Below are positions 37,585 through 53,509 of a DNA stretch of 64,000 bases, piece after piece. The translations under genes were made by a program, and so were the position numbers. The DNA comes from Nocardia nova SH22a (lineage in GTDB: Bacteria > Actinomycetota > Actinomycetes > Mycobacteriales > Mycobacteriaceae). The notes under the pieces were generated by a model that was not told the DNA's origin, searched no databases, and saw only the letters and a program-made list of their open reading frames with translations. How positions within the stretch are numbered: the stretch's first letter is position 1; every line of letters starts with the position of its first letter. Where the stretch lies: NCBI RefSeq assembly GCF_000523235.1, contig NZ_CP006850.1, positions 1,488,001 through 1,552,000 of the forward strand, in the 5' to 3' direction.

Positions 37585-38603
37585 GCCCGCGCAGTGCACC
37601 ACTGCTGAAATTCAGCGCCTTCGCCGTCGTGATGGTGGTGCTGTCGGCCTTCCTGGTTCTGGTGTTCGGCCAGTACCGGACGGGGTCGACCAACAGTTAT
37701 TCGGCGGTCTTCACCGATTCCTCGGGTGTGCATTCCGGGGAGAGTGTGCGGGTGGCCGGGGTGGAGGTCGGCAAGATCCGCGGCGTTCACCTGCGCGACG
37801 ATCAGAAGGTGGTCGTCGATTTCGACGCCGATCGCGATGTCGTCCTCACCGGCGGCACCAAGGTGGCCATCCGCTATCTGAATCTGGTCGGTGACCGCTA
37901 TCTGGAACTCACCGACGGTCCCGGATCGACCCAGGTGCTGCGGCCCGGCTCGCGGATCCCGCTCGCGCAGACCACCCCCGCACTGGATCTGGATCTGCTG
38001 CTGGGCGGTCTGAAACCCGTTCTGCAGGGCCTGAATCCGAATGATGTGAACTCGCTGACCTGGTCGCTGGTGCAGATCGTGCAGGGCCAGGAGAACACGA
38101 TGGATTCGCTGCTGACCAAGACCGCCTCGTTCTCGTCCAAACTGGCCGACACCAGCGATGTGGTAGGCAAGCTGATCGACAATCTGAACATCGTCATGAA
38201 GACGTTGTCCGACAACGGATCCCAGTTCTCCGACGCCATCGACCGGCTCGAGCAGCTGATAACCCAGCTGTCCCAGGATCGCGACCCCATCGGATCGGCG
38301 ATCGACGCCCTGGACAAGGGCACCGCCTCGGTCGCCGATCTGCTCACCCAGGCCCGGCCGTCACTGGCCGCAAATATCGAACAATTGTCGCGGCTGGCCC
38401 CGGCCGTGGACAACAACAAGGGTGAACTCGATGCCGCGCTGGGGCGCGCGCCGGAGAACTTCCGCAAGATGGTCCGCACCGGCGCCTACGGCAGCTTCAT
38501 CCAGTACTTCGTCTGCGGACTGACCATCCGGGTCAACGATCCCTCGGGCCAGGTCGTCCAGTTGCCCTGGATCGAAACCAAAACGGGAAGGTGCGCACCG
38601 TAA
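37581..38603 (+). CDS. mceB: MceB-type protein
   Basis: 340 residues from ATG 37581. N-terminal helix (FSAFAVVMVVLSAFLVLVFG), MCE domain (NSYSAVFTDSSGVHSGESVR, VAGVEVGKIRGVHLRDDQKV, YLNLVGDRYLELTDG), then helices with the repeated heptad-like part IDNLNIVMKTLSDNGSQFSD, and a typical end with a Cys (FVCGLTIRVND). The stop is directly followed by the mceC start, without any spacer. Confidence 0.94.
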   Translation: MSPRSAPLLKFSAFAVVMVVLSAFLVLVFGQYRTGSTNSYSAVFTDSSGVHSGESVRVAGVEVGKIRGVHLRDDQKVVVDFDADRDVVLTGGTKVAIRYLNLVGDRYLELTDGPGSTQVLRPGSRIPLAQTTPALDLDLLLGGLKPVLQGLNPNDVNSLTWSLVQIVQGQENTMDSLLTKTASFSSKLADTSDVVGKLIDNLNIVMKTLSDNGSQFSDAIDRLEQLITQLSQDRDPIGSAIDALDKGTASVADLLTQARPSLAANIEQLSRLAPAVDNNKGELDAALGRAPENFRKMVRTGAYGSFIQYFVCGLTIRVNDPSGQVVQLPWIETKTGRCAP

Positions 38604-39638
38604 ATGTTGCACTATCGCGGCGCTCACCTGCTGCGCCCGGGACTCGTCGGCATCGTGGTCATCGTCTGCGTGATCATGATCGGCCTGCAGTCCCAGAAGT
38701 TCATCTCCTGGGGCACCACCGTCCGATACAAGGCGTTGTTCGCCGAGGCGGCCGGACTCGCCGTCGGCGACGACGTGATCGTCTCCGGCGTGCGGGTCGG
38801 CAAGGTACAGAAGATCGGACTGGAGAACGGGGATGCCGCCGTGGTGTTCTCGGTCGATTCCACGATCCGGCTGGGCGCCGACACCTCGGCGCACATCAAG
38901 ACCAATTCGCTGCTGGGCAAACGGGATCTGACGGTCGTCTCGGGGGGATCGGGACGATTGCACACGCTCGACACGATTCCCGAGAACCGGACCTCGGCGC
39001 CCTATTCGCTCACCGACGCGGTCGGGGATCTCACCACCAAGACCGCCGCGGTGGACACCGACGCGCTCAACCGCTCCCTCGACATGCTCTCGCAGACACT
39101 CGATCACATCGCCCCGCAGGTGGGACCGGCCTTCGACGGACTGACGGAGTTGTCGAAGACCATCAACAGCCGCAACCAATCACTGCGCGATCTGCTCGGC
39201 AGCGCGAGCACGGTGACCTCGGTGCTGTCCCAGCGCAGTCAACAGGTGAATTCGCTTATCCTGAACGCGAATTCGCTGCTGGAGGTGCTGGCGGCGCGAC
39301 GCCAGGAGATCGTCGAGCTGCTGGCCAACACCTCGGCGGTGGCCAAACAGCTCTCGGGTCTGGTCGCCGACAACGAGGCCCAGCTCGGGCCCACCCTGGA
39401 CCGGTTGAATTCGGTGGCCGCGATGCTCGAGAAGAACCGCGACAACATCGGCAAGGCGATACCCGGGTACGCCAAAGTGGCGCTGACCCAGGGCGAAGCG
39501 GTGTCCGGTGGTCGTTTCTACAACGCGTACGTCGCGAATCTCATCGACGGCAACGATATTCAGCCCTTCATCGACGCCGCCTTCGGTGTGAATCCGCCTG
39601 CCCCGTTCCCGATACCGCATCCGGAGCCGCCGCGATGA
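38604..39638 (+). CDS. mceC: MceC-type protein
   Basis: 344 residues. Helix LVGIVVIVCVIMIGLQ, MCE domain (VRYKALFAEAAGLAVGDDVI, VSGVRVGKVQKIGLENGDAA, NSLLGKRDLTVVSGG), coiled helical region with a RDLLGSASTVTSVLSQRSQQ segment, and the Pro-rich end PPAPFPIPHPEPPR typical of MceC. Overlaps mceD by 4 bases. Confidence 0.94.
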   Translation: MLHYRGAHLLRPGLVGIVVIVCVIMIGLQSQKFISWGTTVRYKALFAEAAGLAVGDDVIVSGVRVGKVQKIGLENGDAAVVFSVDSTIRLGADTSAHIKTNSLLGKRDLTVVSGGSGRLHTLDTIPENRTSAPYSLTDAVGDLTTKTAAVDTDALNRSLDMLSQTLDHIAPQVGPAFDGLTELSKTINSRNQSLRDLLGSASTVTSVLSQRSQQVNSLILNANSLLEVLAARRQEIVELLANTSAVAKQLSGLVADNEAQLGPTLDRLNSVAAMLEKNRDNIGKAIPGYAKVALTQGEAVSGGRFYNAYVANLIDGNDIQPFIDAAFGVNPPAPFPIPHPEPPR

Positions 39639-40870
39639 ACAAGACCTGGATACTGCGGATCGCCGGTGCCGTGATCGCCGTCGTGGTGGTCGTCACCGGA
39701 GGGGTGATCGGATATCGGGAGCTGTTCGGCCCCAAGCATTTCACCGCGATCTTCAGCACCGCCACCGCCATCTATCCCGGTGACGATGTGCGGGTCGCGG
39801 GGGTGCGGGTGGGCCGGATCGCCTCGATCCAGCCGCAGGGCACCACCACGAAAATGGTGCTCGATGTGGACCGGGGGGTGAATATCCCGGCCGACGCGAA
39901 GGCGGTGATCGTGGCGCAGAGCCTGATCGCGGCCCGATACGTCCAGCTCACCCCTTCCTACAAGTCGAGCGGACCGACCCTGGCCGACAATGCGGTTATT
40001 CCGTTACAGCGCACCGCGGTACCGGTCGAATGGGACGAGATCAAATCCCAGTTGACCAAGCTGGCAACGAGTCTGGGCCCCAACGGCGACTCGCAGAGCA
40101 GTTCGATGGGACGTTTCATCGACAGTACCGCCGGCGCCCTGGGCGGTAACGGTGAGAAGCTGCGCGCCATGCTCGCCCAATTGTCCGGGGTGGGCCGCAT
40201 CCTCGCCGACGGCAGCGGCAATATCGTCGATATCCTGCAGAATCTGCAGACCTTCGTGAGCGCATTGCAGAACAGTGGCGCCGAGATCGTGCAGTTCGAG
40301 AATCGGCTCGCGACGCTGACCAGCGTTGTCGACGACAGTAAGACGGATTTGGACGCGGCGGTGAAGAATCTGTCGGTCGCGGTCGGCGAGGTGCAGCGAT
40401 TCGTGTCCGAAAACCGGGACAGGACCAGTGAGCAGGTGCAGCGACTGGCGAATGTGACGCAGAATCTGGTCGACCATCGCGGCGATCTGGAGAATCTGCT
40501 GCACATCGCGCCGAACAGCATCGCGAACTTCTATCACATCTACAATCCCGACACCGGTACCGAGGCAGGCGCTTTCGAGCTGAACAACTTCACGAATCCG
40601 ATGCAGTTCATCTGCGCGGGCGTGGGAGCCATCGAGAATGCGACGGCCGCCGAATCCGCGCAGAAATGCCGCCAGTATCTGGGGCCGATCCTGCCGCTGA
40701 TCTCGTTCAACTATCTGCCGTTCCCGTTCAGTCCGGGAATGGGACCGGCGCCGGATCCGAAGAACATCATCTACAGCGAACCGAGTCTGATACCGAATGC
40801 CGCTGCGCAACAACCCGGTCCGCCGCCACCGGCCTCGGTCGGCGAACTGCTGCAGCCGTGGGGAAGGTGA
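39635..40870 (+). CDS. mceD: MceD-type protein
   Basis: 411 residues from ATG 39635; longer frames lie in mceC shadow sequence. Helix WILRIAGAVIAVVVVVTGGV, MCE domain (FTAIFSTATAIYPGDDVRVA, GVRVGRIASIQPQGTTTKMV, IVAQSLIAARYVQLTP), long helical part, and the MceD C-terminus with ANFYHIYNPDTGTEAGAFEL, two Cys residues (FICAGVG, QKCRQYLGP) and a Pro-rich tail. Confidence 0.94.
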   Translation: MNKTWILRIAGAVIAVVVVVTGGVIGYRELFGPKHFTAIFSTATAIYPGDDVRVAGVRVGRIASIQPQGTTTKMVLDVDRGVNIPADAKAVIVAQSLIAARYVQLTPSYKSSGPTLADNAVIPLQRTAVPVEWDEIKSQLTKLATSLGPNGDSQSSSMGRFIDSTAGALGGNGEKLRAMLAQLSGVGRILADGSGNIVDILQNLQTFVSALQNSGAEIVQFENRLATLTSVVDDSKTDLDAAVKNLSVAVGEVQRFVSENRDRTSEQVQRLANVTQNLVDHRGDLENLLHIAPNSIANFYHIYNPDTGTEAGAFELNNFTNPMQFICAGVGAIENATAAESAQKCRQYLGPILPLISFNYLPFPFSPGMGPAPDPKNIIYSEPSLIPNAAAQQPGPPPPASVGELLQPWGR

Positions 40871-42009
40871 GCACGATGAGGATCCGGCAACTCGCCGTAG
40901 GGCTCTGCGTGCTGCTCGCCACCGCCGGTTGCGGCTGGCACGGGGTGGATTCGCTGCCGCTGCCCGGTGCCACCGGCCGCGGTTCCGGCGCCGCCGTCTA
41001 TCACGTCGAGATGGCGAATGTCGGTACGCTGGTATCGAATTCGCCGGTGATGATCGACGATGTCACGGTCGGCAGCGTGGGCGCCATCAGCGTGCGCGGC
41101 TGGCATGCCGATGTCGAGGTGTCGGTGAAACCCGATGTGGTGGTGCCCGCGAATGTGGTGGCCACCATCGGCCAGACCAGTCTGCTGGGCTCGACCCACC
41201 TGGCGCTGAATCCGCCGCCCGGCGCCGCGCCCAGCGGACGGCTGCAACCCGGCGCGACCGTGCCGATCGACCGGACCTCGACCTATCCGTCCACCGAACA
41301 GACCCTGGCCTCGCTGTCGGTGGTCCTCAACGGCGGCGGGATGGGGCAGATCAACGACATCATCCACAATCTGAACGCCGCCTTCTCCGGGAGAGAAGGC
41401 GCGATCCACGATCTGATTCCGCGCCTCGACGCGTTCATGACGGTGCTCGATCAGCAGCGCGACAATCTCCTGGCGACCGTGACCCAGCTGAATCGGATGT
41501 CGGAAACCTTTGCCCAGCAACGCGATACGGTCAGCGAGACATTGCAGAAGATCGGCCCCGCACTCGATGTGCTGTTGAAGGAACGCCCCAACATCACCAC
41601 CGCGCTGGACAAACTGCACACCTTCAGCGATACCGCGACGGGTGTGATCTCGCAGGTGCAGTCGGATCTGCTGACGAACCTGCGCAATCTGGAACCGGCC
41701 CTGCAACAGCTGGCCGATGTGGGGCCCAAGATCCCGAGCGCGGCCTCGTTCCTCACCGTGTTCCCCTACGGCCAGTACGGCATCGACCACGGCATCAAGG
41801 GCGATTACATCAACCTGTTCGCCACCATCGACCTCACCGTGCCGCGCCTGCAACGCGAACTGCTGCTCGGCACCCCGTGGGGTGATCCGAACGCGGTGGT
41901 GCAGGCCATGGTCGGCGATCCCGGTTACGGAAAACAGACCAACGATCCGCTGGGGGCGCCGCTGCAGCCGCCTGCCGATTCGCCGGCACCGAACGGAGGC
42001 GGCCGATGA
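40867..42009 (+). CDS. mceE: MceE-type lipoprotein
   Basis: 380 residues from GTG 40867 (GTGA overlap with mceD; ATG 40876 is the alternative). The lipobox LLATAGC at about residues 16-22 predicts lipid attachment, as is typical for MceE. MCE domain: VYHVEMANVGTLVSNSPVMI, DDVTVGSVGAISVRGWHADV, IGQTSLLGSTHLALNPP; then helices and the family end (FLTVFPYGQYGIDHGIKGDY, INLFATIDLTVP). Confidence 0.94.
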   Translation: MSTMRIRQLAVGLCVLLATAGCGWHGVDSLPLPGATGRGSGAAVYHVEMANVGTLVSNSPVMIDDVTVGSVGAISVRGWHADVEVSVKPDVVVPANVVATIGQTSLLGSTHLALNPPPGAAPSGRLQPGATVPIDRTSTYPSTEQTLASLSVVLNGGGMGQINDIIHNLNAAFSGREGAIHDLIPRLDAFMTVLDQQRDNLLATVTQLNRMSETFAQQRDTVSETLQKIGPALDVLLKERPNITTALDKLHTFSDTATGVISQVQSDLLTNLRNLEPALQQLADVGPKIPSAASFLTVFPYGQYGIDHGIKGDYINLFATIDLTVPRLQRELLLGTPWGDPNAVVQAMVGDPGYGKQTNDPLGAPLQPPADSPAPNGGGR

Positions 42010-43544
42010 TTCTCACCCGGTTCGTGCGCGCGCAATTGGTCATCTTCGCGATCCTCGCGGTGATCGGCATGGTCGCGATGGCCGTGCAGTACATGAAACT
42101 GCCGACCCTCGCCGGAGTCGGCACGATGAAGGTGACACTGGAACTGCCGACCTCGGGTGGTCTGTACCGGTTCGGCAATGTGACCTACCGCGGTGTCCAG
42201 ATCGGCAAGGTGACCTCGGTGGACCTCACCGACAACGGCGTGAAGGCGACGCTGGCCATCGACGGCGGGCACAAGATCCCCGCCGACCTCGAGGCCGAGG
42301 TGCGCAGCGTGTCCGCGGTCGGTGAGCAGTACGTCGATCTGCGTCCGCGCACCGACGCGGCGCCCTATCTGCACGACGGCTCGGTCATCGACGTGCGGGC
42401 GGCCACCGTGCCGCAGCCGGTCGGCCCGATGCTCGACAAGCTGGACAGCCTGGTCTCGAGCATTCCGAAGGACAAACTGCACAATATGCTCGGCGAGATG
42501 TTCACCGGGCTCAACGGCGCCGGGTACGACCTGCAATCGCTGCTGGACTCGGCGTCGAAGGTCGCCGCCGACGCTGACAAGACCGGCGACACCACCCGGG
42601 CACTGCTGGAAGGCGCACAGCCACTGGTGGATTCGCAGGACCAGTCCGCCGACGCCATCCGGATCTGGGCACGCAGCCTCGCCGGGGTCACCGGACAGCT
42701 CTCCGCCGACGACTCCCAGGTGCGTTCACTGCTCGACAAGGGACCGGGTGCGTTACAAGAGTCGACCAAACTGCTCAATTCGGTGAAACTCACACTGCCC
42801 GTGCTGTTGTCGAACCTGACCTCGGTCGCGCAACTGGGCGTGACCTACCACGCCAACCTGGAACAGATCCTGGTGCTGCTCCCGCCGGAGGTCTCCATCG
42901 TCGAGGCCGTGCAGCCCACCAAGAACGCACAGGGACTGGGACTCGGCGACTTCCGGATCAGCGGCGTCTCCGACCCGCCCGCGTGCACGGTCGGCTTCCT
43001 ACCCCCGTCCCAGTGGCGCGACCCGTCCGACACCACCACCATCGACACCCCCGACAACCTGTACTGCAAACTGCCACAGGACTCGCCGGTGGCAGTGCGC
43101 GGAGTGCGCAACTTCCCGTGCGCGACCCATCCCGGGAAGCGGGCGCCGACGGCCGAGATGTGCAACAGCGACCAGGATTTCGTGCCGGTGGCGCCGGATC
43201 AGCCGGTGGTGGGGCCGTATCCGCGCGACCCGAATCTGGAATCCCAAGGGGTGCCGCCGGATACGCGGCCGTTCCCGACACCGTCCGACCCGCCGCCGCC
43301 ACCGCTCGTGCCGCAGCTTCCGCCGTTGCCGCAGCTTCCCAAGATTCCGTTGCCGCAGATTCCGGGGCTTCCGGCACCCGCCGCCGCACCCGCTTCCGCC
43401 ACCGGAAAGACCACTCCCTCAGTGGCATTCGCGCACTATGACCCGCATACGGGGAAGTACTTGGGGCCGGACGGGACGATGTATCGGCAACAGGACTTGG
43501 CCGCTACCCGGCCTGCTGGGTGGAAGGATTTGGTGCTGCACTGA
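42006..43544 (+). CDS. mceF: MceF-type protein
   Basis: 512 residues, last gene of the operon, ATGA overlap with mceE. N-terminal helix (LVIFAILAVIGMVAMAVQYM), MCE domain (TLELPTSGGLYRFGNVTYRG, VQIGKVTSVDLTDNGVKATL, VSAVGEQYVDLRPR), helices, a Cys-containing domain (SDPPACTVGFLPPSQWRDP, NLYCKLPQDSPVAVRGVRNF), and a Pro-rich tail from about residue 410 ending HYDPHTGKYLGPDGTMY. The stop codon lies inside the first copy of a 19-bp tandem repeat. Confidence 0.94.
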   Translation: MILTRFVRAQLVIFAILAVIGMVAMAVQYMKLPTLAGVGTMKVTLELPTSGGLYRFGNVTYRGVQIGKVTSVDLTDNGVKATLAIDGGHKIPADLEAEVRSVSAVGEQYVDLRPRTDAAPYLHDGSVIDVRAATVPQPVGPMLDKLDSLVSSIPKDKLHNMLGEMFTGLNGAGYDLQSLLDSASKVAADADKTGDTTRALLEGAQPLVDSQDQSADAIRIWARSLAGVTGQLSADDSQVRSLLDKGPGALQESTKLLNSVKLTLPVLLSNLTSVAQLGVTYHANLEQILVLLPPEVSIVEAVQPTKNAQGLGLGDFRISGVSDPPACTVGFLPPSQWRDPSDTTTIDTPDNLYCKLPQDSPVAVRGVRNFPCATHPGKRAPTAEMCNSDQDFVPVAPDQPVVGPYPRDPNLESQGVPPDTRPFPTPSDPPPPPLVPQLPPLPQLPKIPLPQIPGLPAPAAAPASATGKTTPSVAFAHYDPHTGKYLGPDGTMYRQQDLAATRPAGWKDLVLH

Positions 43545-48565: not shown

Positions 48566-49462
48566 ATGAGCGAGGAATCGACCGCACACCGTGGTGAAGA
48601 ACCGCCCGACATGCCCATCGTGGTCGCCGCAGACGGCTCCGAGATCGCCAATCAGGCGGTCGCGTGGGCCGCGGTCGACGCGACATTGCACGGGCGGCGG
48701 CTCGACATCATCACCTCCGCCACCCTGCCCGCGGGGTTCGGCGCCGAGATCTGGGCGGGCGGCGCCGACTGGATCCGCGAGGACGGCGAACGCATCATCG
48801 CCGAGGCGCACCGGATCGCCGGACTGGTGAACGGTCCGCCCGAGATCCGCACCGAACTCGTCTTCGACCCCATCATCCCGACCCTCGTCGCCCGTTCGGA
48901 ACAGGCATACCGCCTGGTCGTCGGCAGCCGCGGCCGCGGCGCCGTGCGGCGCGCGCTGCTGGGCTCGGTGAGTTCGGCGGTGGTGCAGCGGGCGCGCTGC
49001 CCGGTCACCGTGGTCCCCGGCAACTCGGCCACCGATCTGGTGACCGCCGCCCAACCGGTGGTGGTCGGCGTGGACGGCACCGAGAACAGCGAGCCCGCGA
49101 TCGGCGTGGCCTTCGACGAGGCGTCGCGGCGGAAGGTGCCGCTGATCGCCGTGCACACCTGGAGCGATATCAGTCTGCCCGAGGTGGCGGTCGCGGGCTG
49201 GGACACCCTGCGCGAATCCGAACGCGCCGCGCTGTCGGAGAGCCTGGCCGGATGGCGCGAACAATATCCGGATGTGGATGTGCGGCCGGTGGTCTGGGCC
49301 GACCGGCCCGCGCGCGCCCTGCTGGCCGAGTCCGAGCACGCGCAGCTGGTCGTGATCGGCAGCCACGGCCGCGGCGGATTCTCCGGCATGCTGCTGGGAT
49401 CCACCGGGCACGCGCTGTTGCAGTCGGCCGAATGCCCGGTCGTGGTGGTGCGCAAGCGCTGA
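48566..49462 (+). CDS. Universal stress protein with two Usp domains
   Basis: 298 residues. Domain 1 (about 12-150) shows PIVVAADGSEIANQAVAWA and VVGSRGRGAVRRALLGSVS (ATP-binding GxxGRGxxxxxxxGSVS); domain 2 (about 158-298) shows PVVVGVDGTENSEPAIGVA and VIGSHGRGGFSGMLLGSTG. Both G-loops are intact, so ATP binding is expected. Length fits mycobacterial dormancy-type USPs. A strong hairpin follows the stop. Confidence 0.93.
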   Translation: MSEESTAHRGEEPPDMPIVVAADGSEIANQAVAWAAVDATLHGRRLDIITSATLPAGFGAEIWAGGADWIREDGERIIAEAHRIAGLVNGPPEIRTELVFDPIIPTLVARSEQAYRLVVGSRGRGAVRRALLGSVSSAVVQRARCPVTVVPGNSATDLVTAAQPVVVGVDGTENSEPAIGVAFDEASRRKVPLIAVHTWSDISLPEVAVAGWDTLRESERAALSESLAGWREQYPDVDVRPVVWADRPARALLAESEHAQLVVIGSHGRGGFSGMLLGSTGHALLQSAECPVVVVRKR

Positions 49463-49471
49463 GATCCGGAG

Positions 49472-49498
49472 CGCGCCGGGCGATGTCCGCCCGGCGCG
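49472..49498 (+). terminator. Terminator of the universal stress protein gene
   Basis: Perfect 11-bp stem CGCGCCGGGCG / CGCCCGGCGCG, loop ATGTC, starting 10 bases after the stop codon. Confidence 0.75.
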
Positions 49499-50032
49499 AT
49501 ATCTCTCGTCGAACGTGGCAAACCTGGGGCGACAGCATCACTCCCGGGGAATGAGCGGCCCGGTGCGCATCGGCGGGGCGAGCACTTGCACCGGGTCTTG
49601 TGACCAGGAAAAGCCAACGGGGGGAACGATTTCGGTCGCCGGCCGGGGAGACCGGCGCCCGGGCGGGCTTTTCGTCACGACCATCGCGCACGGGCCATGT
49701 GGCCGGTGAACCAGTCTCTGCGGGTCCCGTTTGCCCGATTCCCGCGCACCCGGACGGACTCGCGGCGGTACCGGAAAAGAATTTTCCTTCGCAAACGAAC
49801 GGTTTGTGACTCGAGCCAGGGCGCCGCGGCGATCGTTCGGGCCGGAGGACAAGAGTTCCGGGATACTTCCGGCCGGAATTGAAAAGTATTGCGGAGCAAG
49901 GTAACTGGACGGCGCGATTGCCACGCCGGGCGGCGTGTCCGGTCCGGTCGTCCGATCCTGCGGTGACAGCTGTTAGCGGAAAAGTAGCTGAACTCGACGG
50001 TAACCCCCGGTCATATATTTAGAGGAACTGCT

Positions 50033-50061
50033 TGCTTGAAAACTGGGCGCTTGATATGTTG
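50033..50061 (+). promoter_or_regulatory. Possible promoter of the small-protein pair
   Basis: TTGCTT (50033-50038) and TATGTT (50056-50061) are 17 bases apart, the ideal spacing for a primary sigma factor, in the most AT-rich part of the spacer. This would give a leader of about 90 bases before the first ATG. Confidence 0.35.
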
Positions 50062-50159
50062 CCTGCGTCACTGTCGATACCGGACCGTGACCTTTGAACT
50101 CTCAGGCGTGATTCCGGCGACTGAGGGCGATTGGACATGCGCACAAAGGAGATTTGTCA

Positions 50160-50273
50160 ATGGGTTCGTTGAGTGACGTGCTTACAGCCATTATCCCCGC
50201 TCTGGGTTCTGCTGTGGCGGGCGACGGGCTGTGGGACACATTCCTCGGCTCGCTCGGGGCCATCGTCAAGTAG
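50160..50273 (+). CDS. 37-residue hydrophobic protein, candidate mycomembrane (PorA/PorH-like) protein
   Basis: ATG 50160 follows AAAGGAG at ideal spacing; stop TAG at 50271. The product begins MGSLSDVLTAIIPALGSAVA and ends in FLGSLGAIVK. It is Gly/Ser/Ala/Leu-rich, has no signal peptide and could form one amphipathic helix. The second small gene 76 bases on starts with the same MGSLxDxL pattern, and a mycolyltransferase follows. Corynebacterial PorA and PorH are similarly tiny, signal-less, adjacent to each other and O-mycoloylated on Ser; Ser17 in ALGSAVAG would be a comparable site. No sequence identity to PorA/PorH is claimed. Too short for normal gene-finding limits. Confidence 0.75.
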   Translation: MGSLSDVLTAIIPALGSAVAGDGLWDTFLGSLGAIVK

Positions 50274-50349
50274 GCATCGCAGAACTTGGTTCGACCATCG
50301 GTATTTCCGGCGTGGAATTCCGGTGCACGAGAAATTTAGGAGAAATAAT

Positions 50350-50466
50350 ATGGGATCGCTCGTCGATATTCTCGGCCAGGGCATCGGTAGTGCAGCCCCC
50401 ATCGGCACCAATATCGTGAATGCGCTCATCACTCTGAGTGGTGGCACTCCGGCTGCCGGTAAGTAA
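50350..50466 (+). CDS. 38-residue hydrophobic protein, paralogue of the preceding one
   Basis: ATG 50350 follows TTAGGAGAAAT; stop TAA at 50464. It begins MGSLVDILGQGIGSAAPIG and ends GGTPAAGK. Position-by-position likeness to the upstream protein covers MGSL.D.L and the later GSA (Ser14 here, Ser17 there), with a C-terminal Lys in both. A longer frame runs upstream to 50173 but would overlap the first small gene; the ribosome-binding site decides for 50350. A strong hairpin follows 12 bases after the stop. Probably a cell-envelope protein acting with its partner. Confidence 0.75.
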   Translation: MGSLVDILGQGIGSAAPIGTNIVNALITLSGGTPAAGK

Positions 50467-50478
50467 TTCAGCTGCCGA

Positions 50479-50517
50479 CCGCGGGGGCGCACCCGATCGC
50501 CGGGTGCGCCCCCGCGG
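50479..50517 (+). terminator. Strong hairpin after the small-protein pair
   Basis: Perfect 16-bp stem (CCGCGGGGGCGCACCC / GGGTGCGCCCCCGCGG) with 7-base loop, between the second small gene and the mycolyltransferase. It would end most transcripts from the small genes, giving them higher expression than the enzyme downstream. Confidence 0.85.
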
Positions 50518-50531
50518 CGGTGTCAGGGTCG

Positions 50532-51584
50532 ATGGTGTGTGAGGCGATGGCGGTGTTTGCAGACAAGGTGCGCGGGACAGTGCGCTGGATGGCGTGTCCG
50601 GTGGTGGCGGCGCTGATCGCGATCGCGTTCGCGCCCACGGCGGCGGCCGCGCCCGCGGCCCGGATCGTCACCGAAACCCCCGGCCCGGGACGAATTCTCG
50701 AGATCGGCGTGTACTCCCCGTCGATGGACCGCGTGATACCGCTGCAGGTCCTGCGGGCCGCCGACACGTCGACCCCGGCGCCCACGCTGTATCTGCTCAA
50801 CGGCGCCGGCGGCGGCGAGGACGCCGCCACCTGGCTGAAGCAGACCGACGCCTCGGACTTCTTCACCGGTAAGCACGTCAACGTCGTGGTCCCGATGGAA
50901 GGGGCGTTCAGTTACTACACCGACTGGGAGCGCCCCGACGAGGGCCTGGCGAAGAAGCTGAACAACAACGGCCGGAACATGTGGGCGACCTTCCTCACCG
51001 AGGAACTGCCGCCCGTGATCGACGCGGCCCTGCACACCACCGGTGCCAACGCGCTGGCCGGTATCTCCATGGCCGGGACGTCGGTGCTGGATCTGGCGAT
51101 CCGGGCGCCGCGGCTCTACCGCAGCGTGGCCGCCTACAGCGGATGCGCGATGACCAGCGATCCGCTCGGGCAGTCGTTCGTATCCCTGGTCGTCGGCCTG
51201 GGCAAGGGCGATCCGCGCAACATGTGGGGTCCGACCGGCGGCCCGGGCTGGCGCGAACACGACCCCTACCTGCACGCCGACCGGCTGCCGGACATTCCCA
51301 TGTACATCTCCAGCGGCAGCGGACTGCCCGGCAGGCACGACACCCTCGGCGATCCCGGCGTGGGTGACGACGGCCGCGTCCTCGCGAACCAGGTGGTGCT
51401 CGGTGGCGGCATCGAATCCGCGGCCAACTACTGCACGGCCAGACTCGCCGAGCGCACCCGGCAGCTGGGGCGTACCGACATCACCTACAACTTCCATCCC
51501 GCCGGCACCCACTCCTGGGGCTATTGGCAGGACGACCTGCACAAATCCTGGCCGATGATGGCGGCCGCCATCGCCGTCGGCTAG
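50532..51584 (+). CDS. Antigen-85-type mycolyltransferase / secreted esterase
   Basis: 350 residues from ATG 50532; GTG 50520 (2 bases after the hairpin) and ATG 50547 are alternatives in frame. A signal peptide (WMACPVVAALIAIAFAPTAA, then AAAP) exports it. Ag85 features: LYLLNGAGGGEDAATWLKQT, VNVVVPMEGAFSYYTDWERP, TFLTEELPPVIDAAL, nucleophile GISMAGTSVLDLA, and the His motif AGTHSWGYWQDDLHK. It would move mycolic acid from trehalose monomycolate to an acceptor: trehalose, arabinogalactan, or protein serine. Its place right after two PorA/PorH-sized proteins suggests protein O-mycoloylation, as an inference. Stop overlaps that of the convergent WS/DGAT gene. Confidence 0.9.
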   Translation: MVCEAMAVFADKVRGTVRWMACPVVAALIAIAFAPTAAAAPAARIVTETPGPGRILEIGVYSPSMDRVIPLQVLRAADTSTPAPTLYLLNGAGGGEDAATWLKQTDASDFFTGKHVNVVVPMEGAFSYYTDWERPDEGLAKKLNNNGRNMWATFLTEELPPVIDAALHTTGANALAGISMAGTSVLDLAIRAPRLYRSVAAYSGCAMTSDPLGQSFVSLVVGLGKGDPRNMWGPTGGPGWREHDPYLHADRLPDIPMYISSGSGLPGRHDTLGDPGVGDDGRVLANQVVLGGGIESAANYCTARLAERTRQLGRTDITYNFHPAGTHSWGYWQDDLHKSWPMMAAAIAVG

Positions 51585-53047
51585 TCGCCGTCGGCGTGCG
51601 GCACCAGGCTCTCGGCCCGGATCGCGGCGGTGAGTTCGCGTAGCGACCGCACCAGCAGCTCACCGTAGTGCTGCGGATCGGGCAGCATCGCGGCATCGGA
51701 ACTGACCGAGATCACCAGCTGATCGCCCTGTGAGGTGATCAGATGCCGCAGCCCGTCGCCGTCCATGACCGGCAGGACGCCGAAGACGCTGACCACCGGC
51801 GCGCCGAGGAATTCCAGCCGGGTCGCGACCGGCGGCACATTGCTGATCGTGGTGTTGGTCAGCGGCACCGTGTCCACCTCGTCGAATACGCGCTGCGACC
51901 GGGCCCAGCCCGCCAGGCGCAACAGCCACGCCGGTGCGGTCTGCATCCGGCCCTCGCGCACGATCACCGCGTCATCGCGGTAGCGCTGTTTCTCCCGCTC
52001 GGCCGACCCGCGGATCGCGCGCAGCCGGGCCACCGGATCGTCCAGATCGGTGTGCAGATCCACCGACATCTGGCACAGCTGGTTCGCCGAATCCCACTGT
52101 GCGATACCGCGCATCGAGATCGGCACCATGGCCGCCAGGGTCGCGGGCGGCGCCTCGCCGCGTTCGGTGAGATAGGTGGTCAGCGCGCCGGAGACGACGG
52201 TGAGCAGCAGATCGTTGATCGTGACGCGCTCGATGAAGGCGTCCTTCGCGGCGCGGACCTCCGGCAGCGGCACGGTGACCAGATCGAAGATCGGCGCCGG
52301 GGTGATCCGGCGGTTGAAGCGGGTGGCCGGGCGCAGCGGTTCGGGCTCGCGCAGCAGGTCCTCGGCGACCCGGGCGCGCACGGTATCGGCCGCGGCGCGG
52401 GTGCGGACGAGGCCGCCGACGAACCGCGCGCACCGCAGCGGCGTCACCGCGGCGGCGCGGGCCGCGGCGGTCGGCGCCGACCAGCCGCTCTCGACCGTGG
52501 GCAGGGGCGGATATTCGCCGTCCACGCCGAACAGTTTCAGCTCCAGTTCCCGGGTGGCGACCCCGTCACCGGCACTGTGGTGGAACTTCAGCACCACGAT
52601 CGTCACCGGCGCCGCGGTATCGGGGAATCCGGTGACGCCGTCGAAGACGTACAGTTCCCAGGGCGGCCGGGTGAGATCCATACGGGCGCCGGTGATCTCG
52701 GCCATGCGATTGCGCACGACCGGCCAGGACTGCGACGCCTCGGCGAGCGTCACGTGATCGTCGATGTCGAACTCGGCGTCGGGCACCCAGTACGGCAGAT
52801 CGAGGTCGCCGGGCAGCCGTTCGAGCCGGCGGCGGAACAGCGGCGAACAGCCCAGCCGCTCCCGCATCCAGGCGCGTACCTGAGCCCGGCTGATCGGGCC
52901 GCCCGCACCGCCGAAAACATATGCGGCGACGATATTCGACGGATGACGGTCGAACTCGTCGTAGACGAATACCGCATCCCGCGGCGCCAGTTGTTCGGCG
53001 GTGATACGCGCTCCGCCACCGGCCCCGTGGACCGATTTCTTCGTCAT
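51581..53047 (-). CDS. WS/DGAT-family wax ester synthase / diacylglycerol acyltransferase
   Basis: 488 residues from ATG 53047; the in-frame extension to 53140 is Arg-rich and not family-like. The catalytic motif HHSAGDG is at 156-162 (family HHxxxDG). Other family segments: LAPRDAVFVYDEFDRHPSNI, RMDLTRPPWELYVFDG, ANQLCQMSVDLHTDLDDP, and NTTISNVPP late in the protein. It esterifies a diacylglycerol or fatty alcohol with acyl-CoA for storage lipid. Shares a 4-base stop overlap with the convergent mycolyltransferase gene. Confidence 0.93.
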   Translation of the reverse strand: MTKKSVHGAGGGARITAEQLAPRDAVFVYDEFDRHPSNIVAAYVFGGAGGPISRAQVRAWMRERLGCSPLFRRRLERLPGDLDLPYWVPDAEFDIDDHVTLAEASQSWPVVRNRMAEITGARMDLTRPPWELYVFDGVTGFPDTAAPVTIVVLKFHHSAGDGVATRELELKLFGVDGEYPPLPTVESGWSAPTAAARAAAVTPLRCARFVGGLVRTRAAADTVRARVAEDLLREPEPLRPATRFNRRITPAPIFDLVTVPLPEVRAAKDAFIERVTINDLLLTVVSGALTTYLTERGEAPPATLAAMVPISMRGIAQWDSANQLCQMSVDLHTDLDDPVARLRAIRGSAEREKQRYRDDAVIVREGRMQTAPAWLLRLAGWARSQRVFDEVDTVPLTNTTISNVPPVATRLEFLGAPVVSVFGVLPVMDGDGLRHLITSQGDQLVISVSSDAAMLPDPQHYGELLVRSLRELTAAIRAESLVPHADGD

Positions 53048-53509
53048 GACTGCTCCTGCTCGGGCATTTTTCCTCCGGCGGAGTCTACCGTTCCGGCCGG
53101 AAGTGGAGTCCGGGACCGGCGAAATGATTTCGGCGCGCATTTTCTATTGTCATCGGAAATAATTGTCCGGTGCCGAGTGATATCGATGCGCCGATCGAAG
53201 CCGTCGCCGGAGGGGAGTGGCGACCGGGCGCCGGACCGCCGCCGTGGAACGGATTCCATCCGGTAATACCTGATGTCTATAACAATGCATCGACGGGTCC
53301 GCGACGGTATCGATATCTCTGCGGTTGCCCGCAACTCGGTCCGCGGGTCACGTATCGCCGGGCGCCGACGGTCCGGCGGGTTTGCCCGAGGGTTCCATCG
53401 GCCGATACTCCCGATCCCGGGGACCGCGCCGTGTTGTGCGACCGGGGCGGTGCTGGCATCCTCGCGGGCATCGTCGTGTCGGCGGGACAATTCGGGCGTG
53501 AGGGATGTG
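53048..53509. other. Divergent intergenic region
   Basis: This 462-bp spacer lies between the WS/DGAT gene (minus) and the anchored unknown protein (plus). Open frames run through it on both strands but show no start signal or protein-like composition until the Shine-Dalgarno before 53510. I see no repeat or RNA gene. Confidence 0.45.

Follow-up and report, generated by a model that had tools for sequence, protein, structure and literature searches.

A conserved pair of mini-protein genes linked to a Cmt1-group mycoloyltransferase in Nocardia nova SH22a: candidate substrates for O-mycoloylation

Introduction

Do two tiny genes lying next to a mycoloyltransferase gene in Nocardia nova SH22a encode the proteins onto which that enzyme transfers mycolate? 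The question is raised by peptide genes A and B in a 64,000-nucleotide stretch of this genome (contig NZ_CP006850.1, positions 1,488,001 to 1,552,000 of the forward strand; hereafter the window), which is 8.35 Mb in size and assembled as a single contig. The initial annotation of the window took the pair for an equivalent of the PorA/PorH system of Corynebacterium glutamicum, with the adjacent enzyme as its modifier. We consider it fairly probable that A, B and the enzyme, which belongs to the Cmt1 group, constitute one module, in which the enzyme would mycoloylate serines in the Gly-Ser motifs of the two peptides, and these would pair as amphipathic helices in the mycomembrane. Observations in favour of this proposal include the nearly all-or-none co-occurrence of the genes, the group to which the enzyme belongs, and the duplication of A and B together.

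Peptide genes A and B

Peptide A (37 residues; MGSLSDVLTAIIPALGSAVAGDGLWDTFLGSLGAIVK) is encoded at 50160..50273 and peptide B (38 residues; MGSLVDILGQGIGSAAPIGTNIVNALITLSGGTPAAGK) at 50350..50466, both on the forward strand and separated by 76 bp. As initially annotated, the two open reading frames (ORFs), of 37 and 38 codons, begin with MGSLxDxL and each possesses a GSA motif. The strong ribosome-binding sites (RBSs) described there are also present, AGGAG being found 8 bases ahead of the ATG of A, where the full site reads AAAGGAG (50145..50151, forward strand), and 7 bases ahead of that of B. Among the aligned loci a GGAG-type site precedes the start in all 23 A rows and in 23 of the 28 B rows; the other five B rows have no start codon at the row beginning, and the RBS was not judged in them. 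No signal peptide is visible by eye in either peptide (no signal predictor was run). Neither matched a Pfam model up to E 1, and hence not MspA (PF09203), or any NCBIfam model.

Their very small size and lack of a family model match are what one would expect of chance ORFs in a GC-rich intergenic stretch. Both peptides are, however, found beside a mycolyltransferase in other Nocardia and in rhodococci, and the conservation of the ORFs and their starts in related genomes, on which the initial annotation had staked its proposal, extends to the RBS and the stop. The comparison of substitution rates that it had suggested reveals a purifying pattern across the Nocardia homologues: among 11 Nocardia sequences of each peptide the ratio of nonsynonymous to synonymous differences (pN/pS) is 0.31 for A and 0.46 for B, values that are rough since synonymous change is high (pS about 0.5), and pN is lower than pS in 55 of 55 pairs for each peptide. 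Third codon positions are the most variable (0.48 in A and 0.44 in B, versus 0.12 and 0.17 at second positions). Homologues in other genomes, the GGAG sites, the excess of synonymous change and the variation by codon position put the ORFs beyond chance, and A and B are conserved genes. With their co-occurrence with the enzyme, described below, added to this, we rejected the chance explanation, to which we attach a negligible probability.

The two were also said to be paralogous. Their profiles are alike in the first 18 columns (hhalign probability 75%, E 2.6e-5) and the rest is not shared, so that a distant common origin is possible and weakly supported.

The mycoloyltransferase

The gene following the pair on the forward strand lies in an ORF of 354 residues (50520-51584), which opens with GTG at 50520; the ATG at 50550 is the likelier start (50550..51584), and the N-terminus resulting from it resembles a secretion signal by eye. 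The product is an esterase-fold mycolyltransferase (PF00756). The initial annotation called it an antigen-85-type enzyme, and its position beside the pair is confirmed; the nearest solved structure is, though, not antigen 85 but Cmt1/MytC (244.6 bits, versus 140 for PS1/MytA and 104 for Ag85A). It is identical to Cmt1 at 132 of 304 aligned residues and has the catalytic Ser, Glu and His residues, S183, E299 and H331 of the 354-residue ORF aligning with S189, E310 and H341 of Cmt1.

A tree of 50 rows was made. Three duplicate rows were removed, only the final 340 residues of one long row were used, and matches of less than 200 residues were not taken, including the incomplete first enzyme of locus L076, the pieces of which were not joined. 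Genera other than those named carry our codes (g10, g14 and so on). A 17-row clade (support 100/100), which excludes all 19 paralogues of this genome, consists of the enzymes linked to the pair in Nocardia, Speluncibacter, g22, g23 and g10 and of one gene of g14. This clade is located within a 29-row group (100/99) together with Cmt1 and 11 of those paralogues, apart from PS1. Judged by sequence, the module enzyme thus groups with Cmt1/MytC, a protein mycoloyltransferase, rather than with MytA/PS1. A second type of enzyme is found beside the pair in other genera and forms a 12-row clade (100/100) outside the Cmt1 group.

Counting that of the window, the genome contains 20 mycolyltransferase-like matches, 12 in the Cmt1 group and five in the MytA/PS1 group, an expansion that is unexplained. 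By eye, no tiny pair was recognised among RBS-preceded ORFs of 25-90 residues in 11 neighbourhoods covering 14 of the 19 other paralogues (all except the five at G000:C1:159552-164169 and 2843159).

Co-occurrence, gene order and distribution

In 98 Nocardia genomes, peptide B was identified in 32, peptide A in 33, the module enzyme (at least 65% identity) in 33 and an acyltransferase of the WS/DGAT family, discussed in the following section, in 30 (at least 55% identity). All 32 genomes with B also have A and the enzyme (Fisher p = 5e-25 for B with the enzyme, uncorrected for phylogeny). The module is therefore nearly all-or-none in Nocardia and present in about a third of the sampled genomes. 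A stop codon is crossed by three of the peptide A matches and seven of the 30 WS/DGAT matches; complete peptide A ORFs were seen for G408 and G295 despite this.

Of 22 primary loci fetched from outside the window, 20 have A, B and the mycolyltransferase gene in that order. The exceptions are L081, with weak peptides and an enzyme about 4.5 kb away, and L082, with peptide B only. The pair duplicates as A-B units, three in tandem in G440 and G373 and two in G349, G420 and G121; the A-B-A arrangement of G295 is the odd case. In genome G401 a relative of peptide A (L168:5400-5516; MGSLGGGTLLRALVPLLDSAVASDGLWATFLGSLGNLMK) stands alone, the 11 kb fetched around it containing no peptide B, module enzyme or WS/DGAT gene. 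It is possibly the remnant of a lost module.

A first sample of 151 genomes of the family had A and B in 10 of 10 Nocardia plus further genera; in view of the 32 of 98 in the larger sample, this overstated the spread. With the peptide B profile (E<=1e-9), 45 of 401 family genomes and five of 31 genera gave a match: 27 of g1 (Nocardia), seven each of g10 and g23, three of g22 and one of g25. Only part of the candidates were scored per genome in this search (19 of up to 74), so that its absences are less sure than those among the 98 Nocardia. The named loci number 31 and comprise, besides Speluncibacter jeojiensis, Rhodococcus spelaei and R. maanshanensis, 28 Nocardia records. When 298 genomes from across the order were sampled, eight matched at E<=1e-9, all inside the family of the window; five weak matches beyond it (E 7e-4 to 0.01) are in frames of 71-732 residues, two of them with an internal stop.

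Mobile origins were considered and rejected: peptide B matches none of 72,556 plasmid records at E 0.1, and the 421-bp region of the pair none of 50,697 phage records at E 1e-5.

The WS/DGAT acyltransferase

Convergent with the enzyme gene, the last 4 bp of which it overlaps, is a gene (51581..53140, reverse strand) for a WS/DGAT-family acyltransferase (PF03007, PF06974). Its HHSAGDG sequence fits the HHxxxDG motif of that family. It is a co-conserved member of the module: it is present in 30 of the 32 module genomes, in each case adjoining the enzyme by coordinates, and at 55% identity or more in none of the other 66 Nocardia genomes. The two module genomes without it are G411, which is 78% complete, and G184. 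In 17 of the 22 fetched primary loci a relative with at least 37% identity is close by, on either strand and on either side. Among the remaining five, L072 and L081 have none, and L074, L076 and L077 have one that is 26-28% identical and about 4-5 kb off.

Genus g23 has a second locus (L083:6132-6521, L084:6286-6675), which encodes a 61-residue protein starting MGSLMDILGG and a peptide-B-like frame. Two WS/DGAT genes adjoin it, and mycolyltransferases lie at a distance of about 4 kb.

The acyltransferase is linked to the pair almost as tightly as the mycoloyltransferase is, in convergent, downstream and upstream arrangements, which invites a different explanation, namely that A and B are lipid-body or lipid-export peptides that cover or transport storage lipid produced by the WS/DGAT protein, the module enzyme handling a related lipid such as acylglycerol or glycerol mycolate. 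Tiny amphipathic proteins could coat lipid, and the B-like frames of L083 and L084 lie closer to WS/DGAT genes than to mycolyltransferases. Nonetheless we think it unlikely. The enzyme is nearer to Cmt1, which acts on proteins, than to PS1/MytA or Ag85; five peptide-bearing loci have no close WS/DGAT relative nearby; and the secretion-signal-like start of the enzyme would part it from lipid bodies in the cytosol.

The acyltransferase might instead be the fourth component of a lipidation module, in which it and the mycoloyltransferase acylate the same two mini-proteins, one before export and the other after. The invariant MGS at the N-terminus and the internal Gly-Ser motifs would then carry different acyl chains, and the doubly acylated mini-proteins would form a pore or coat in the mycomembrane of Nocardia and rhodococci. 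To this elaboration we assign a small probability, and regard it as very unlikely.

Sequences flanking the pair

A promoter-like block (50032..50060, forward strand) is located about 100 bp ahead of the first start codon and consists of TTGCTT (50032-50037), a 17-nucleotide spacer and TATGTT (50055-50060). In an upstream alignment of 12 Nocardia loci, TATGTT is exact in 11, L170 having TACGTT, and by eye TTG occurs at the same column or within one base in all 12. A scan with the sigma-70 consensus did not list this block, or anything else at the pair.

Between the pair and the enzyme gene is a GC-rich hairpin (50474..50521, forward strand; -51.1 kcal/mol, z -7.2). A hairpin is found directly 3′ of B in all 27 loci that were folded (the pair-bearing L171 and L174 were left out of this count), with z below -2 in 26; its sequence is common to close relatives and differs between lineages. 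The initial annotation called it a strong terminator. Its strength is borne out, but it has no U-tract and a terminator scan did not list it or any other site at the pair. Lacking the U-tract in the window, it may be a terminator, an attenuator or a stabiliser of the mRNA. A hairpin conserved in place and not in sequence offers a possible test case for actinobacterial terminators or attenuators that lack a U-tract.

Together, the block 5′ of the pair and the hairpin 3′ of it would yield many peptides per enzyme. This bears on the possibility that the enzyme mycoloylates trehalose or arabinogalactan, with the peptides as its membrane anchors or regulators and not its substrates. In C. glutamicum the activity of MytA is reportedly promoted by a small protein, Cgl2215 (PMC10441969), and the many Cmt1-group paralogues in one genome suggest varied acceptors. 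An excess of peptide over enzyme would, though, be a better fit for substrates, and the peptides carry invariant Gly-Ser motifs. We therefore consider an anchoring or regulatory role quite unlikely.

No Rfam element was found at gathering scores in 49400-53300. More than 500 bp (49463-50030) separate the stress-protein gene upstream from the promoter-like block; no gene was recognised in this interval, and no gene search was made. Farther upstream (38591-43544) the translations, examined by eye, look like those of an mce-type operon.

Conserved residues and predicted structure

In 19 aligned A sequences (L081 and the long A forms of L078-L080 being excluded), M1, G2, S3, G16, S17, D22, L24, F28, G30 and S31 are invariant, and the Gly-Ser motifs are thus spaced 14 residues apart. 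In 22 aligned B sequences (excluding L081-L084) the invariant residues are M1, G2, S3, L26, S30, G31 and G32; B has an SGGTP tail. AlphaFold predicts, with low confidence, a helix-turn-helix for A (residues 4-21 and 24-36) and a single helix for B (residues 4-29). The hydrophobic moment at 100 degrees exceeds that of shuffled sequences in 18 of the 19 A sequences for helix 1 and in all 22 B sequences; by this measure the helix of B and the first helix of A are amphipathic.

Some A proteins of genus g10 are longer, at 63-64 residues. One of these, used as a query, had 15 database relatives, of which five are named, all as "hypothetical protein"; where an organism is given, it is Prescottella or Rhodococcus.

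A and B, being small, amphipathic, rich in glycine and encoded by neighbouring genes that are patchily distributed (32 of 98 Nocardia) and duplicated in tandem, also recall the leaderless two-peptide bacteriocins, and could be a secreted antimicrobial or signalling pair. Their net charges of -2 and 0 are not cationic, however, and the direct neighbours are genes for a stress protein, the mycoloyltransferase and the WS/DGAT protein, with no transporter or immunity gene. Linkage to a mycoloyltransferase across genera would not be expected of such a pair either, and we hold this role to be highly improbable.

Comparison with known systems

PorA and PorH of C. glutamicum are reported to be tiny proteins without identifiable signal sequences (PMC12632848) and to be substrates of Cmt1/MytC (PMC12632848, PMC11927696), which by itself moves mycolate from trehalose monomycolate onto Ser15 of PorA in vitro (PMC11927696). 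PorH is described as assembling at the surface only when PorA is present and one or both of the two proteins are mycoloylated (PMC12632848). The window pair likewise consists of two adjacent tiny genes in a mycolate bacterium; at 37 and 38 residues the products are about the size of PorA and PorH (adjacent genes, about 40-60 residues). They are predicted, with low confidence, to be helical, and by eye no signal is recognisable in them. The mapped O-mycoloylation sites of C. glutamicum are reported as Ser, less often Thr, among the small residues Ser, Gly and Ala, with no strict motif (PMC11066868), and the Gly-Ser sites of A and B resemble them.

The loci differ. The PorA and PorH genes are reported to lie between groEL2 and ppk2 (PMC3792995), whereas those of the window have a Usp stress protein, the mycoloyltransferase and the WS/DGAT protein as neighbours, with the mycoloyltransferase in the same locus and duplications of the A-B unit. 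Similarly, the module enzyme shares its group and aligned catalytic triad with Cmt1/MytC (PDB 4H18, 8QHF) but, unlike it, falls in a separate clade that is bound to the locus and accompanied by tiny proteins. Membership of the PorA/PorH families by sequence was rejected: both window peptides and two longer relatives gave no match to NF033925, NF033937 or NF033938 up to E 10, and PorA and PorH of C. glutamicum, used as positive controls, matched NF033925 and NF033938 over their cut-offs. The proposed equivalence to PorA/PorH is accordingly supported in part, as regards conserved ORFs tied to a Cmt1-group mycolyltransferase, and not as regards the PorA/PorH models. A and B are best read, from sequence comparison, as an unnamed mini-protein family apart from PorA/PorH, with its own mycoloyltransferase and WS/DGAT partner. 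Among the matches listed in the open-licence literature, the pair is not described.

The MspA-type porins of Nocardia include NfpA and NfpB. Channels of this type are the ones described for Rhodococcus (PMC9233653); PorARr and PorBRr of R. ruber are also encoded by neighbouring genes. The MspA-type subunits are reported to be of about 20 kDa and to have signal peptides (PMC9233653), whereas the window peptides match no Pfam model. By description, not sequence, A and B can also be likened to ProtX, PorB and PorC, reported as O-mycoloylated envelope proteins of C. glutamicum (PMC5310785, PMC12632848).

Proposed function of the module

By analogy with PorA and PorH, the module enzyme would act outside the cytoplasm with trehalose monomycolate as the donor, and the acceptors would be among the invariant serines, S3, S17 and S31 of A and S3 and S30 of B. 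The two peptides would meet 1:1, and in the mycomembrane they may form either a pore or a structural coat.

Several observations weigh against this proposal. The AlphaFold models score low, with a predicted local distance difference test (pLDDT) of 70 and 68 and a predicted template modelling score (pTM) of 0.29 and 0.33 for A and B, and helix 2 of A is more amphipathic than shuffled sequences in only one of 19 sequences. Two of the 98 Nocardia genomes break the co-occurrence, G430 with the enzyme and no peptides and G401 with peptide A alone. Four of the 20 loci with the usual gene order (L072, L075, L078 and L080) have the pair with only the second type of enzyme, which is farther from Cmt1. 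In this genome 11 other paralogues fall in the Cmt1 group in the tree, one of which (L090) scores slightly above the window enzyme against Cmt1 (241 versus 236 bits); orthology of the module enzyme with Cmt1 is not settled, since Cmt1 is on a long branch. The peptides are unmatched by the PorA and PorH models, and a pure PorA/PorH analogy leaves the WS/DGAT partner unexplained. Finally, MspA-family matches are present in 98 of 98 Nocardia genomes, so that the pair is not the sole porin and a main or general porin role is unlikely. Their number does not vary with presence of the pair (8.3 versus 8.8, p 0.42), and the idea that the pair has replaced MspA porins, which would show as their loss from genomes with the pair, was rejected on this basis.

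Significance

A 2024 study of the C. glutamicum O-mycoloylome reports close orthologues of Cmt1 in Nocardia and Rhodococcus and urges a search for O-mycoloylation beyond C. glutamicum, describing the modification as undemonstrated in mycobacteria (PMC11066868). The module offers candidate substrates and a candidate enzyme in one locus, together with strains that naturally possess or lack it, which makes the question of O-mycoloylation directly testable. A further question is the function of a WS/DGAT acyltransferase adjacent to a protein mycoloyltransferase. If the proposal is true, Nocardia and the rhodococci, in which the porins described are of the MspA type, would also possess a system of helical mini-proteins.
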